In this document: piece after piece, positions 45,306-51,961 of the stretch
Layout of the letters: every line of letters begins with the position of its first letter
How positions within the stretch are numbered: the first letter of the stretch is position 1
Translations under genes and position numbers: made by a program
Source: Ectothiorhodospira lacustris
Lineage (GTDB): Bacteria; Pseudomonadota; Gammaproteobacteria; Ectothiorhodospirales; Ectothiorhodospiraceae
Assembly: GCF_022227845.1 (NCBI RefSeq)
Contig: NZ_JAJNQN010000014.1
Span: 1 to 64,000, forward strand
Direction of reading: 5' to 3'
Length of the DNA stretch: 64,000 nucleotides
Notes under the pieces: model-generated
Databases searched by the model: none
What the model was told of the DNA's origin: nothing
Seen by the model: only the letters and a program-made list of their open reading frames with translations

Positions 45306-46289
45306 TCAGGGTGTGCGGCGGCGGGCGGCTTCGGCGCTGAAGTGGGTCTGGGCGAAGGCGGCTCTTTCCGCCGCCGGGGCGGTGGGTGTGTTGGCGCCCT
45401 CGGTTCCGGCATCGATCATGGCAATGCGATGGCCCAGACCGATGCTGTTGGCCAGCTGCACCGCCAGCCCGGGCCGGGCGTTGAGTTCCAGCATCAGCGG
45501 GCCGCGATCCCGATCCAGGACCAGGTCCACGCCCAGATAGCCCAGCCCGGTCAGTTCGTAGCACCCGGCAGCCAGTGCCAGCAGCCGGTCCCAGCCGGGG
45601 ATCTCCAGCCCGCTGATGGGGGCGCCGGTGTCCGGATGCAGATCAATGATCTGGTTATGCCAGACCCCGTGTTCGGTGCGCCCGCTACCCATGTCGATAC
45701 CGGCGCCCACGGCGCCCTGATGCAGGTTGGCCTTGCCGTCCGAGTCCCGCGTGGGCAGGCGCACCATGGCCATCACCGGGTAGCCCTTGTACACCACGGT
45801 GCGGATGTCGGGCACGCCCTGAAAGCTCACTTCCTCGAACATCGGGTGAAAGTGTACCCGATACTCGATCATGGCCTTGTCAGGCTGTCCCCCCAGGCTG
45901 TGCATGCCGCTGAGGATGTTCGAGACATGATGGGCCATGCTGGCCTGATCCACGATCTGGCCGCTGGCCTTGCGGAAATGCCCGCGCATGCGGCCGACAA
46001 TCACCATGATGCCGTTGCCGCCGGAGCCGTGGGCCGGTTTGATGACGAAATCATCATGCTTGCCGACGATTCTGGCCAGGTTGCGGATGTCGTGGTTGGT
46101 CTCGATCACCCCGTAGAGTTCGGGCACCGCGATACCCGCATCCAGTGCCAGCTTTTTGGTGATGAGCTTGTCATCCACCAGGGGGTAGTTGCGACGGGGG
46201 TTGAGCTCGGCAATGAACCAGGCGTTGCGCTGGTTCATGCCGACGACGCCCCGCCGTCGCAATTCCTTCGGGCTGATGAACCACTTCAT
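45306..46289 (-). CDS. Alpha-L-glutamate ligase-like (RimK-related) ATP-grasp protein
   Basis: A 327-residue ATP-grasp protein of the RimK-related family. The nucleotide-binding loop VIKPAHGSGGNGIMVI and the metal-binding LELNARPGL are intact, so it is probably active. RimK enzymes add glutamate to protein C-termini or small molecules; the substrate here is not known. Its ATG overlaps the upstream gene's stop (ATGA). It is the last gene of the operon retropepsin - inactive transglutaminase/7TM - ligase. Confidence 0.85.
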   Translation of the reverse strand: MKWFISPKELRRRGVVGMNQRNAWFIAELNPRRNYPLVDDKLITKKLALDAGIAVPELYGVIETNHDIRNLARIVGKHDDFVIKPAHGSGGNGIMVIVGRMRGHFRKASGQIVDQASMAHHVSNILSGMHSLGGQPDKAMIEYRVHFHPMFEEVSFQGVPDIRTVVYKGYPVMAMVRLPTRDSDGKANLHQGAVGAGIDMGSGRTEHGVWHNQIIDLHPDTGAPISGLEIPGWDRLLALAAGCYELTGLGYLGVDLVLDRDRGPLMLELNARPGLAVQLANSIGLGHRIAMIDAGTEGANTPTAPAAERAAFAQTHFSAEAARRRTP

Positions 46290-47818
46290 GGGTTCCCCCG
46301 GCCGGACAGGGCCCGAAAGCGCAGCAGCTCGGAAAGCCGGTAACCGGTGTAGCGGCCCAGCAGCAGGGTCACGGCCAGCACGATCAGCAGCAGTTCCGGG
46401 AACACGAAGAACATGTGATCGATGTAGGGGTTGATCATCAGCAGGTAGCCGGCCACCGCCACTGCCAGGCTGCCGATACCCTGGCGGATGGCGTCCGAGG
46501 GGCCGTGCTCTTCCCAGACCAGAGACATGCGTTCGATGGTCATGGCGAGGATCACCATGGGGAACAGAGCGATGGACAGGCCATGCTCGATGCCCAGTTT
46601 ATGGCTGAGGATGCTGAGGGTGAGCATGAGCATGATGACCACGATCACCACCGCCGCCAGCCGTGGTACCAGGAGCAGCTTGAGCCGCTCCAGGTAGAAG
46701 CGGATGGCCAGGCCCAGGGAGACGATGAGGGTGAACAGGATCACGCCCCCCAACAGCTGGGTCTCCCGGAAGGAGAGGGCGATGAGGATGGGCATGAAGG
46801 TGCCGAACGTCTGAACGCCGACGATGTTGCGTAGCAGGACGATGAGCATGGCGCCGACGGGGACCAGCAGCAGTACCCGGTACATGTTCTGGGTCTGAAT
46901 GGGCAGGCCGAACAGGGAAAAGTCCACCGCCCGGGAGTCCATCAGCTGGGCCCGCTGCTGGGCGACGTCGACGGCATCCTGGAAGTTCTGCGTCACCGCA
47001 AAACTGATATGGGGGTTGCGGGCCCGCTGCAGGCGTACCGGGTCCTGATCCCCATACCACCAGACCAGGAAGTTGGAGGGATAGCCCACGGCTCCGGTAT
47101 TGGGGTTGATGGCTATCCACTGTCGGGTGTTGTGAACCTCCAGCCAGACCTGGGGCTGGAGGTCGCGGGCGCGGTCGCTGAGGGGGATGCCGTGCACCAT
47201 GCGGGCGGGAATGCGGGCGCCGGCCAGCAGTTGAATGGCGGTTCGGACCTTGTCCCGATCCGTATCGGTGCGGGAGACGAACAGGGTCATGTTTTCATCC
47301 GGGGTGTTGTTCATGTCCCGGATCAGCACCGTGGCAAAGCTGGTGATGTCGGCGGAACGCTCTCGCACCCGTTGGACCACGGCATCGGCAGCGGAGCGAT
47401 AGGGCTCTTCGAGATTGGGCAGGCTGACCGGGCCGGGGTAGGGTGCCTCGGTACGGCGTTCCCGTTCCAGTTGGGATACCGTGGTGCGGTAGTAAAGGCT
47501 TTGGCGACCGCTGGGCTGGCGGGTGGTCCAGATGGCTTCCCGGTTCTCGCCGGAGAGATCCGTGGTGAGGCCGTAGCCCCGGGAGATGAAATTCTCGTCC
47601 AGCAGGGCGAAACGCCCGGGGTCGTTGGGGATGAAGACCCGCGCCGTCACGGCGCCGCCGGTGGGTTCGAAGCTCACGCGCGCTTCCACGATCCAGTTGT
47701 CGGTGGTCTGTGCCGGCAGCAGGGGGAAACCGAGGTTGTAGACCTTGTGGAAAAACATGCCCAGGCTGGCACTGCAGAGTACCAGTATCACCAGGGGGAG
47801 GTGGAAACGCTTCAACAT
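46286..47818 (-). CDS. Inactive transglutaminase-like 7TM membrane protein
   Basis: A 510-residue protein. An N-terminal membrane segment is followed by a periplasmic transglutaminase-like domain (to about residue 290) in which the Cys-His-Asp triad is absent: there is no Cys in the DKVRTAIQLLAGARIPARM helix, the His position reads Q (PQVWLEV) and the Asp position reads N (INPNTG). Seven C-terminal helices (about 305-495) follow. This is the family annotated as inactive transglutaminase fused to 7TM. The fold likely binds a peptide or D-amino-acid-containing ligand. It overlaps the ligase and lies 18 bases after the retropepsin gene. Confidence 0.85.
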   Translation of the reverse strand: MLKRFHLPLVILVLCSASLGMFFHKVYNLGFPLLPAQTTDNWIVEARVSFEPTGGAVTARVFIPNDPGRFALLDENFISRGYGLTTDLSGENREAIWTTRQPSGRQSLYYRTTVSQLERERRTEAPYPGPVSLPNLEEPYRSAADAVVQRVRERSADITSFATVLIRDMNNTPDENMTLFVSRTDTDRDKVRTAIQLLAGARIPARMVHGIPLSDRARDLQPQVWLEVHNTRQWIAINPNTGAVGYPSNFLVWWYGDQDPVRLQRARNPHISFAVTQNFQDAVDVAQQRAQLMDSRAVDFSLFGLPIQTQNMYRVLLLVPVGAMLIVLLRNIVGVQTFGTFMPILIALSFRETQLLGGVILFTLIVSLGLAIRFYLERLKLLLVPRLAAVVIVVIMLMLTLSILSHKLGIEHGLSIALFPMVILAMTIERMSLVWEEHGPSDAIRQGIGSLAVAVAGYLLMINPYIDHMFFVFPELLLIVLAVTLLLGRYTGYRLSELLRFRALSGRGNP

Positions 47819-47836
47819 GGGTGGTCCTTGTTGTGA

Positions 47837-48448
47837 TCAGCGGTCTTCAGGGTCTTCTTCGTCCTGCTCGATGTCCAGGTCCGTGGTGTCCGTATCCGGT
47901 GGCGCATCTTCCGGCGGAAGACCCTGTGGGGTACAGGCCGGTGTCTGAGTGCGGGTCCTTGACGAGTCCACCAGGATCACCTCCTTCATGTGGTTGCGTC
48001 CCACCAGGGCCTGATAGGTAAGTTGGGTGCGATCAATCAGGCTCATTTCCGCTTCACGGTAGACCTCGCCCATGCACAGGCCGATGCGGACCACGGGGCG
48101 GCGTTGATGGTTGCCGTCGTGGCGGATGATGCGCACATAGCGGGCGATTTCACGTTCGATGCGTACGGTGTTTTGTTCGTCTTCCGGATCTATGATATCG
48201 AAGGCGATCCATTCCCGGCCGTCCCGCTCAAAGATCTTCTTGTTGAGGGCGTTGAGCGAGGACGTGGTGGCGCCCGTGTCCATCTTGGCCTTGAGCTGGA
48301 TGCCTTCGGGGAGGATCTCCACGCGTTCCACCCAGCCCATGATCCGCTGTTGCTCCGGGGGCGCCTGTTCTGCGTCACCCAGAACCTGTATCGGAAACAG
48401 GAGCAGACACAGGGCAGCGACAAGCGTGGGGAGCCGAGGGTGATGCAT
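47837..48448 (-). CDS. Periplasmic retropepsin-like aspartic protease
   Basis: A 203-residue protein with a signal peptide (cleavage near VLG-DA) and a retropepsin-like core: Asp57 in KAKMDTGATTSSLNA is the catalytic DTGA motif, and LVGRNHMKEVILVDSS forms the end of the fold. The C-terminus is a long acidic tail (P/D/T/E-rich). Homologues are often annotated as ATP-dependent zinc protease, a legacy label. The ATG at 48448 has GGAGA six bases upstream. First gene of the three-gene operon. Confidence 0.85.
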   Translation of the reverse strand: MHHPRLPTLVAALCLLLFPIQVLGDAEQAPPEQQRIMGWVERVEILPEGIQLKAKMDTGATTSSLNALNKKIFERDGREWIAFDIIDPEDEQNTVRIEREIARYVRIIRHDGNHQRRPVVRIGLCMGEVYREAEMSLIDRTQLTYQALVGRNHMKEVILVDSSRTRTQTPACTPQGLPPEDAPPDTDTTDLDIEQDEEDPEDR

Positions 48449-48482: not shown

Positions 48483-49445
48483 TTAAACGTCCTCTTCCCG
48501 TCGGGACGGTGATGAGGACCCCATTTTCGGACCGGCATGGGCGGCTTCCATCATGGTAATGAAACGTTTGGCCTGGGGTGAAAGATGCCGGCCTATGCGC
48601 TGCACGATCCCGTAGCTGCGGGCGGGGAAGAAACGATCCAGCGGCATGGCCGCCAGCTGTTCCTTGCCCGTGAGGCAGACATCGGTGACGATGGAAATGC
48701 CCAGTCCCAGTTCCACGTACTTCTTGATCACTTCCCAGCCGCCGGCCTCCAGGGAGACGTGGTAGTCCACATTATGCTGCCGGAACACCAGGTCCACGAT
48801 GCGCCAGGTGGATAGATGGCGAGGGGGCAGGATGAGGCCATAGGGGCTGATATCCTCCAGCTCGATCCTGTCACCCAGTGCGGCCAGAGGATGGTTCTTC
48901 GGGGTGATGAGCTTGGGGTGGTAAGTCACGATGGGTTGATAGGTGATGTCCTCCGGGACCTCCAGCATGGAGCCCACGGCGAAGTCCACCTCATCCCGGT
49001 GCAGCATGGCCAGACCGTCGCGACCCGTCACATTATGCAGCTTGATGCGGATGTGCGGATAGACCTCCGCGAAGCGGCGCAGGGGTTCGGGCAGCACGTA
49101 CAGGATGGTGGATTCCCCCGCCGCCACGTTCAGTTCCCCTGATTCCAGTCGGCCAAAGCTGGCGGCAAAGGTCTCTTGCAGCTTGTCGATACCTTCCACC
49201 AGGGGATCTGCGAGTTTGTAGAGGGTTTCTCCTTCCGGTGTGAGCTTGATCTGGGGACCTCGACGTTCGAAGAAGATGGTCTCGAACTCCCGCTCCAGGG
49301 CCTGAATCTGCAGGGAAACGGCGGGCTGGCTCAGAAACAGGGACTCCGCCGCCATGGAGATACTGCCCAGTCGGGCAGCCCGGCAGAAGGCTCGAAGCTG
49401 TTTGAGGCGATTCTGCTTGTAATAGAGATTCGGGACGGACCCCAT
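48483..49445 (-). CDS. LysR-family transcription regulator
   Basis: A 320-residue LTTR. The winged helix-turn-helix is at residues ~14-72 (LKQLRAFCRAARLGSISMAA, LSQPAVSLQIQALE), followed by a substrate-binding domain. It diverges from ppsA, so it may regulate ppsA or itself. It is not CysB by its DNA-binding sequence; the ligand is not predictable. The 34 bases separating it from the retropepsin gene could allow co-transcription with that operon. Confidence 0.88.
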   Translation of the reverse strand: MGSVPNLYYKQNRLKQLRAFCRAARLGSISMAAESLFLSQPAVSLQIQALEREFETIFFERRGPQIKLTPEGETLYKLADPLVEGIDKLQETFAASFGRLESGELNVAAGESTILYVLPEPLRRFAEVYPHIRIKLHNVTGRDGLAMLHRDEVDFAVGSMLEVPEDITYQPIVTYHPKLITPKNHPLAALGDRIELEDISPYGLILPPRHLSTWRIVDLVFRQHNVDYHVSLEAGGWEVIKKYVELGLGISIVTDVCLTGKEQLAAMPLDRFFPARSYGIVQRIGRHLSPQAKRFITMMEAAHAGPKMGSSSPSRREEDV

Positions 49446-49579
49446 GAATCTTCCCCGGTCGATTGTTTAGTATTAAAGGATAAAAGTCTTTTTTTGGGGC
49501 CAATAGCTTTGCTGAATACTCGTCTTGAGGCTATGGTCCCGGCTACAATTACCGTTTCACGTATGCACAGGGCAGGAGT

Positions 49580-51961
49580 ATGGATAAGTACGTTATCTGG
49601 TTTCAGGACCTGGGAATGAACGATGTCCCCCGCGTGGGTGGCAAGAATGCCTCACTGGGCGAGATGATTCATGGCCTGTCCGAAGCCGGGGTTCGCGTCC
49701 CGGGTGGTTTCGCCACCACTGCCGCCGCCTTCCGCGAGTTTCTCCAGCACGAAGGCCTGGCGGACCGCATCAACGGCCTGTTGGGTGATCTGGACGTGGA
49801 CAACATCAGCGCCTTGCGTGAAGCCGGTGCCCGGATCCGCCGCTGGGTGGTGGAAACCCCGTTCCCGCCGGCCCTGAACGAAGCCATCACCGAAGCCTGG
49901 AACAAGATGGTGGCCGAGACCGAGGGCGAGTTCACCGTGGCCGTGCGTTCCTCCGCCACCGCGGAAGACCTGCCCGATGCCTCCTTTGCGGGCCAGCAGG
50001 AAACCTTCCTCAACGTCAGTGGCCTGGACGGCGTCTTGAAGGCCATCCATGAGGTCTTTGCCTCCCTGTACAACGATCGCGCCATCTCCTATCGGGTACA
50101 CCAGGGCTTTGACCACGCTGAAGTGGCCTTGTCGGCCGGTATCCAGCGCATGGTCCGTTCCGATATCGGCGCCAGCGGCGTGATGTTTACCCTGGATACT
50201 GAATCCGGTTTCCGTGATGTGGTCTTCGTCACCGCTTCCTGGGGGCTGGGCGAGACCGTGGTGCAGGGCTCCGTCAACCCCGATGAATTCCATCTCTACA
50301 AGCCGGCCCTGGACGGTGCTCGTCCCGCCGTGCTGCGCCGTCATCTGGGCAGTAAAGCCATCAAGATGGTCTTTGGCGAGAACGGCCAGTCCACCCGGAC
50401 CGTACCGGTCGGCGAGGATGATCGCCTGCGCTTCTGCATCACCGACGAGCAGCTCGAAGAGCTGGGTCGTCAGGCCATGATCATCGAGAAGCACTACGGC
50501 CGTCCCATGGATATCGAATGGGCCCTGGACGGCGTGGATGGTCAGCTCTACATCGTGCAGGCACGTCCCGAGACTGTGGAGAGCCGGGCTGATGGCCAGG
50601 TGATCGAGCGCTATCGCATCCGTTCCCCCCGCACCGAAGTGCTGGTTCGTGGCCGTGCCATCGGCCAGAAGATCGGTGCGGGCAAGGTGCGCGTGGTCAT
50701 GCACCTGGACGAGATGGATCGGGTACAGCCCGGCGACGTGCTGGTGACCGACATGACCGATCCGGACTGGGAGCCGGTGATGAAGCGCGCTGCCGCCATC
50801 GTCACCGACCGCGGTGGCCGCACCTGTCATGCGGCCATCATCGCCCGTGAGCTGGGCATCCCGGCGGTGGTGGGCTGTGGTGATGGTTCGGCCCGCCTGA
50901 AGGAAGGCGATGCCGTGACCGTGTGCTGTGCCGAAGGCGACGAAGGCCGTATCTACAAGGGCGAGCTGGAGTTCGAGGTGCTGCGTACCCGCACCGACTC
51001 CATGCCCGAGGTACCGGTGAAGGTGATGATGAACGTGGGTAATCCCGGTCGCGCCTTCCACTTCCGCAACATCCCCAATGCCGGGGTGGGTCTGGCTCGC
51101 CTGGAGTTCATCATCAACAGCATGATCGGCGTGCACCCCAAGGCGCTGCTCAACTTCGACACCCTGCCGCCGGACTTGAAGGACGAAGTGGCTCGGCGCT
51201 TTGCCGGCTACCCGGATCCGGTCAGCTTCTACGTGGACAAGCTGGCGGAGGGCATCGCCACCCTGGCAGCCGCCTTCCATCCCGAGCCGGTGATCGTGCG
51301 CCTGTCCGATTTCAAGTCCAACGAGTACGCCAACCTGCTGGCCGGTGAGCGCTACGAGCCGGACGAGGAGAACCCCATGATCGGCTACCGGGGCACCTCC
51401 CGTTACCTGTCCGAGGATTTCCGCGACTGCTTCGAGCTGGAGTGCCGCGCCGTGCGGCGGGTGCGCGACGAGATGGGCCTGACCAACGTGGTCGTCATGG
51501 TGCCGTTCGTGCGGACCCTGGGTGAGGCCGAGGGCGTGATCAACCTGCTGGCAGAGATGGGCCTGAAGCGGGGTGAGAATGGCCTGAAGATCTACATGAT
51601 GTGCGAGATCCCCTCCAATGCGGTGATGGCCGATGAGTTCCTGCAGTTCTTCGACGGCTTTTCCATCGGTTCCAACGATCTGACCCAGCTGACCCTGGGT
51701 CTGGACCGGGATTCCGGTCTGGTGGCGGCCACCTTCGACGAGCGGGATCCGGCGGTGAAGAAGCTGCTGGCCCTGGCCATCCAGGCGGCCCGCAAGGCCG
51801 GCAAGTATGTGGGCATCTGCGGTCAGGGACCGTCCGACTACCCGGATCTGGCTGAGTGGTTGATGGCGCAGGGGATCGAGTCCATCTCCCTGAACCCGGA
51901 CACCGTGGTGGAGACCTGGCTGCGTCTGGCCGGGGATGCCAAAGGTCGTCAGGACGCCTAG
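49580..51961 (+). CDS. ppsA: Phosphoenolpyruvate synthase
   Basis: A 793-residue PEP synthase (pyruvate + ATP + water to PEP + AMP + Pi), a gluconeogenic enzyme. The N-terminal ATP-grasp domain starts [18 protein letters not shown], the phosphohistidine is His417 ([14 protein letters not shown]) and the acid/base cysteine is Cys747 ([11 protein letters not shown]). Length matches the family. GGGCAGGAG lies only one or two bases before the ATG, tighter than usual. A GCTGAA half-site of Cra type appears at about 49511 but has no good partner. ppsR follows. Confidence 0.97.

Follow-up and report, generated by a model that had tools for sequence, protein, structure and literature searches.

What three tightly linked bacterial genes for a secreted aspartic protease, a membrane protein with a catalytically dead transglutaminase domain and a cytoplasmic ATP-grasp ligase may do together is the question raised by one locus in a window of Ectothiorhodospira lacustris DNA, by which the whole analysed stretch of 64,000 nucleotides is meant. 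This gene set was reportedly first noted in a 2009 comparative-genomics paper on amidoligases by Iyer et al.

In Pseudomonas aeruginosa, the genes were named rloA-rloB-rloC and studied genetically in 2025, where the secreted RloA proteases were found to be redundantly required in low salt and the loss of the proteases was rescued by deleting either rloB or rloC (PMC12239564). That work considers free or protein-bound polyglutamate, and a word search shows that it mentions neither export nor transport nor accumulation (PMC12239564). In Shewanella vesiculosa, disruption of an inactive-transglutaminase 7TM gene leads to the overproduction of vesicles (PMC12096838). In the relatives studied, the operon influences cell shape, biofilm formation, vesicle release and antibiotic sensitivity, which gives the function of its products a wider interest.

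Layout, identity and distribution of the operon

The genes follow the order rloA-rloB-rloC on a single strand (Table 1), with 18 bases between rloA and rloB and an ATGA overlap between rloB and rloC, i.e., the order and tight spacing that characterize the rlo operon, and this order is common to nearly all of the relatives' loci that were compared. A first-pass annotation had described three coupled genes, and its coordinates and spacing are all correct on the minus strand.

Table 1. Features of the rlo locus, with positions given in the window.
Feature	Position	Strand	Basis
rloA, secreted retropepsin-like aspartic protease with N-terminal signal peptide, 203 aa	47837..48448	minus	PF05618, NCBIfam
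DTG active-site motif of RloA	48272..48280	minus	sequence
rloB, 510 aa: TM1, periplasmic beta-sandwich, dead transglutaminase and 7TM	46286..47818	minus	PF14400 + PF14402
rloC, cytoplasmic ATP-grasp RimK-like ligase, 327 aa	45306..46289	minus	TIGR02291, PF14397
LysR-type regulator gene	48483..49445	minus	PF03466/PF00126

It is nearly certain that this set is the rlo operon already described, here in an Ectothiorhodospira-type bacterium, and the operon is a known one, with a genetic description from 2025 and existing Pfam and NCBIfam models. RloB is 96% identical to that of Ectothiorhodospira shaposhnikovii. The scores against the narrow NCBIfam models lie below their cut-offs, at 459 against 900 for RloB (NF052267) and, among the models RloA, RloA2 and RloA3 (NF052262-NF052264), at 129 against 210 for RloA3 and 85 against 280 for RloA, so that the proteins are taken as homologues in the wider rlo family and not as the narrowly named ones, despite which the RloA- and RloB-type models are the best named matches.

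The likeness to the P. aeruginosa operon (PMC12239564) extends from the gene order and the three domain types to the signal peptide, the DTG motif, the disulfide cysteines and polyE-contact residues of the protease, the dead transglutaminase and the intact ATP-grasp residues, whereas the present genome has one secreted RloA instead of three, an acidic RloA tail, a LysR gene immediately upstream and the sub-cut-off scores for RloA and RloB. The pairing of a retropepsin with a glutamate-ligase ATP-grasp enzyme, with shared catalytic residues, is also found in RimB/RimK (PMC11957791), but RimB is cytoplasmic, lacks the disulfide cysteines and has no accompanying membrane protein. Here, RloA carries a signal peptide, rloB is present, and the only other PF05618 gene of the genome is RimB-like and lies beside rimK at a separate locus (C46).

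The first-pass annotation had proposed the co-occurrence of the families as a check on its reading, and in a sample of 185 genomes across the class RloB (PF14400) was found in 36 and RloC in 36 (32 over the TIGR02291 cut-off and four clear weaker matches), with both in 35 (Fisher 1.8e-35), i.e., each is accompanied by the other in 35 of its 36 genomes. Of the 36 genomes with RloB, 32 have a PF05618 retropepsin no more than 1.5 kb away from it, which argues that the clustering of the genes is not due to chance and bears out the description of the operon as conserved. RloA is missing from the neighborhood of some operon-type loci that do contain RloC (L031/L061, L060, L114 and L164), and RloC is not universal, given that eight distant RloB-like proteins (L134-L139, L141 and L143) have no adjacent RloC. 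At six of these eight loci (L135, L136, L138, L139, L141 and L143), a gene for a secreted RloA or for a RimB-type retropepsin is observed on the opposite strand, in some cases with rimK. In another genome of the same genus (G106; 2.0 Mb in one contig), no matches to PF14400, PF14402, TIGR02291 or PF05618 were found, and this lineage seems to have neither the operon nor RimB.

Protease, ligase and membrane protein

RloA matches PF05618 at 7e-36 and has relatives in the PDB (9g58, E 3e-16; 9g59, E 1e-14). The ORF list holds an alternative upstream ATG at 48538, and the start was placed at 48448 because it yields a signal peptide, MHHPRLPTLVAALCLLLFPIQVLGDA, that is clear when judged by eye. Together with the motif KMDTGATTSS, both of the disulfide cysteines located by alignment and the basic polyE-contact residues, this gives the protein the features of an RloA-type enzyme, and its earlier description as a periplasmic DTGA protease stands. 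Among the 124 RloA proteins of the operon type, 123 keep the aspartate of the DTG motif, and the remaining one has a gap in the alignment at this place. Of the residues of P. aeruginosa RloA reported to contact polyglutamate (K46, R92, R114 and R137), all four positions are present in this protein, and across the operon-type set the equivalents of R114, R137 and R92 are found in 123, 122 and 110 of the 124, respectively, while the K46 position is K or R in 121. The P. aeruginosa enzyme cuts, in vitro, only substrates with at least eight consecutive glutamates (PMC12239564), so that the statement that the substrate of the system is unknown has become outdated in part.

The RloA of this window also bears an acidic C-terminal tail (DLDIEQDEEDPEDR, 47837-47925). 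A role of this tail as a built-in substrate mimic was considered and rejected as a general feature, since most tails are short (median length, 6.5 aa) or non-acidic, and long acidic ones occur for the most part in Ectothiorhodospira/Thioalkalivibrio, with a few further loci besides.

RloC matches PF14397 at 7e-92 and RimK (PF08443) at 1e-9, and its score of 474 bits against TIGR02291 is above the cut-off of 314. All classes of RloC share K41, K84, D161, R163, R177, N188, H190, D255, E268 and N270 with three RimK proteins, and RimK residues beyond the ATP site are thereby retained, with N188-L189-H190, R163 and R177 kept. The view of RloC as an intact ATP-grasp enzyme of the glutamate ligase type, put forward in the first-pass annotation, agrees with both the score and the retained catalytic residues.

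RloB matches PF14400 at 1e-49 and PF14402 at 9e-107, with the beta-sandwich and the dead transglutaminase domain at about residues 37-260 and the 7TM part at about residues 306-506. When relatives whose Cys-His-Asp triad is intact serve as the anchor of the alignment, the cysteine is seen to be replaced by Asp185, the histidine by Gln223 and the aspartate by Asn238, and the single cysteine of the protein is C15, in the first helix. RloB thus lacks the residues of a PF01841-type catalytic transglutaminase or cysteine protease, and the loss of the triad that had been read from the protein alone is not undone by the anchored alignment. The structure of RloB predicted by AlphaFold2, with a mean pLDDT of 86, matches 3isr, a transglutaminase-like putative cysteine protease, with a Z of 16.0 and an rmsd of 3.8 over 221 residues, and it matches TgpA (6g4h) with a Z of 7.4, a value which alone would not decide the fold. 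Given the match to 3isr and the D/Q/N in place of the triad, the domain is taken as both real and dead, i.e., according to the model, it keeps the transglutaminase fold with the catalytic residues gone. RloB resembles TgpA and other transglutaminase-like envelope proteins in being membrane-bound with a periplasmic domain of this fold, but it differs from them in the absence of the Cys-His-Asp triad and in carrying a different, highly conserved membrane domain.

Conservation was measured over 30 operon-type RloB proteins, in which the 7TM part has a mean majority identity of 0.70, with at least 90% at 61 of 201 positions, against a mean of 0.48 and 6 of 123 positions in the transglutaminase core. 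Charged residues make up many of the highly conserved positions of the 7TM part (R330, R373, R386, E429, R430, E437, R494, E497 and R500). The pattern of conservation in RloB, RloC and RloA suggests that the working core consists of the ligase and the 7TM part. A fold search with the 7TM part gave no significant match, the best being to Rnf/Nqr subunits with a Z of 8.0, a value too low to carry meaning for helical bundles; the likeness to these subunits (Z 7-8), and that of the full-length model to RND pumps, were set aside as lying within noise.

Two relatives of RloB, L097 and L102, lack the transglutaminase domain altogether, and in both the domain-less 7TM protein adjoins an RloC-like ligase. 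Upstream of the 7TM gene, each locus encodes a secreted protein of about 315 aa (L097, 2963-3910; L102, 3155-4099), which is barrel-like by eye and has no match in Pfam.

Catalytically dead enzyme domains often turn into binding domains, and the transglutaminase fold is kept in RloB, two points that favor the "sense-bind-modify" system of the first-pass annotation, in which the dead domain would bind a peptide ligand. Spelled out, the domain would be a periplasmic peptide receptor that governs RloC by a signal passing along the 7TM part. This proposal is poorly borne out by the distribution of conservation, given that the core domain is poorly conserved in comparison with the 7TM part, the most conserved region, and by L097 and L102, which do without the domain. 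The suppression genetics also fits production against destruction better than sensing, and the receptor appears to be the least probable of the accounts considered here.

Relatives with an intact catalytic triad

An intact Cys-His-Asp triad is found in divergent RloB-like proteins, in the form SCNGK...SHQW...PFDTIND. In a first set of 113 RloB-family proteins, the triad was intact in nine, none of which had an adjacent RloA, and it was absent from all 98 of the RloA-adjacent proteins. A held-out set was then drawn from a further sample of the class, in which new loci were scored with RloA, RloB and RloC models fixed beforehand, and some of the genomes of which belong to families also in the first set; it contributed four new intact-triad proteins, none with RloA and each having genes for an RloC-like ligase, a TPR protein and a barrel after its own, as well as 26 further RloA-adjacent proteins, all of which lack the catalytic cysteine. 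In total, the 152 RloB-family proteins comprise 13 with an intact triad, which have RloA on neither strand in any of the 13 fetched loci, 124 with a same-strand adjacent RloA, all of them without the catalytic cysteine, and 15 with neither. Of these 15, one is located at the end of a contig, the domain is missing from two, and several are distant proteins with an opposite-strand retropepsin.

The intact-triad proteins form one clade in the tree (support, 0.988), for which reason the Fisher value of 1.7e-11 for the contrast between triad and RloA overstates the association and is descriptive only; the association may represent a single evolutionary event. In the RloC tree rooted on RimK, which bears on whether the triad was lost once or twice, the canonical type forms one group with a support of only 0.76.

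The operons of these relatives (e.g., L104, L108, L094 and L056) share with the rlo operon a homologous membrane protein and an ATP-grasp enzyme in the same order, and they differ from it in the live triad, the absence of a retropepsin and the extra TPR and barrel genes. The TPR gene is present in all 13 loci and an outer-membrane barrel was identified by profile match in 11, the exceptions being L099, which ends before the barrel, and L058, which has no barrel profile match. A TPR protein with an outer-membrane barrel is what one would expect of a system that carries a polymer through the envelope, and in this way the sister operons hint at the destination of the product. In L058 (4476-6992), the live transglutaminase-7TM protein and the RloC-like ATP-grasp domain are joined in one ORF of 838 aa, which argues that the ligase and the membrane protein act directly together. 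No description of the live-triad operons was found in the literature searched, and such relatives are not mentioned in the rlo paper (PMC12239564).

Given that none of the live-triad sisters in the sample carries an adjacent protease, it is suggested that RloA took over the job of the dead domain, i.e., that the retropepsin assumed a processing role which had earlier belonged to RloB itself. The live-triad operons are of added value here, as, if the live domain and RloA share a product, one may replace the other. A broader, rather doubtful generalization would hold that there are two or more related machines of the envelope, the rlo family among them, in which an ATP-grasp ligase and a conserved 7TM protein make and move an anionic amino-acid polymer. 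In one, a live transglutaminase-fold domain would process the product and the TPR and outer-membrane barrel proteins would carry it outward, and in the other, to which the operon of this window would belong, the domain would have died and its cutting passed to a retrovirus-type aspartic protease.

Product of the operon and neighboring genes

For the rlo operon, the account to which we incline, at somewhat short of an even chance, is that RloC makes poly-alpha-glutamate or glutamylated material, RloB delivers it to the periplasm, where RloA cuts it, with failure in low salt when it is left uncut. With its RimK-type active site, RloC would join L-glutamate in the cytoplasm, into poly-alpha-glutamate or onto a small acceptor, and the conserved 7TM part of RloB would pass or present the product to the periplasm, where the dead transglutaminase domain may hold or guide the chain. 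Cutting of the chain in the periplasm would be the work of RloA, as suggested by the in vitro cleavage by the P. aeruginosa enzyme, the residues of which are conserved here. If the chain is not cut, an anionic polymer may accumulate, draw water and crowd the periplasm, which could account for the low-salt failure, and the rescue observed in P. aeruginosa may be explained by the removal of this polymer with RloB or RloC. In the literature searched, no demonstration of the product of RloC or of transport by RloB was found.

Because the loss of rloB or rloC rescues the loss of the protease, a make-versus-destroy pair fits better than a sensor, and the make-move-cut model is stronger than the sensing interpretation. 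A Vibrio cholerae strain without most of its lytic transglycosylases also fails in low salt, a defect relieved by the loss of opgH, which is needed for periplasmic glucan synthesis (PMC8820737). This is a close precedent for low-salt failure from an uncut periplasmic polymer with rescue by removal of a polymer synthase. If the model is true, the product would be a bacterial periplasmic amino-acid polymer with a role comparable to that of the osmoregulated periplasmic glucans.

The best Pfam family of RloC is named "sugar-transfer associated ATP-grasp", which allows for another substrate, i.e., RloC may add amino acids to a protein or lipid-linked envelope precursor, such as a peptidoglycan or glycan intermediate, which RloB would move or display and RloA would trim, with no free polyglutamate involved. 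The P. aeruginosa phenotypes in cell shape and with cell-wall antibiotics also point to the wall (PMC12239564), and the intact-triad relatives have an outer-membrane barrel, which in one operon weakly matches the polysaccharide-associated EpsL model. On the other hand, the run of at least eight glutamates that RloA needs in vitro (PMC12239564) is not a feature of peptidoglycan, and RloC keeps RimK residues beyond the ATP site, so that this reading is considered unlikely.

A reading of slightly lower probability still takes RloB itself, or a partner membrane protein, as the polyglutamylated substrate, which RloC would tag and from which RloA would remove the tag, thereby switching its activity. 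There is a precedent in RimK and RimB, which tag and untag the ribosomal protein RpsF (PMC11957791, PMC12239564), and the tight coupling of RloB and RloC, with one fusion, would also suit it. However, RloC is cytoplasmic and RloA periplasmic, so that the glutamate tag would have to cross the membrane, and the C-terminus of RloB is predicted to be cytoplasmic, with last residues that are not conserved.

Near the operon, no RNA elements were found above Rfam thresholds, and a scan for sigma-70-type promoters gave nothing exceeding chance. The LysR gene, which was absent from the first-pass annotation, is encoded on the strand of rloA, 34 bases upstream of it, and it is a possible regulator of the rlo genes or may possibly be co-transcribed with them. 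It was not found beside rlo in Thioalkalivibrio and the more distant loci compared, which places it outside the rlo core. In the region 48483-51961, this gene, which immediately precedes rloA, is accompanied by a phosphoenolpyruvate synthase gene (ppsA) in divergent orientation, an arrangement that is kept in five Ectothiorhodospira loci (L001-L004 and L009), while ppsA alone, without LysR, is present in two Thioalkalivibrio-type loci. A PEP synthase and an inactive transglutaminase were both recovered in the Shewanella vesicle screen (PMC12096838), a link that may be a coincidence.
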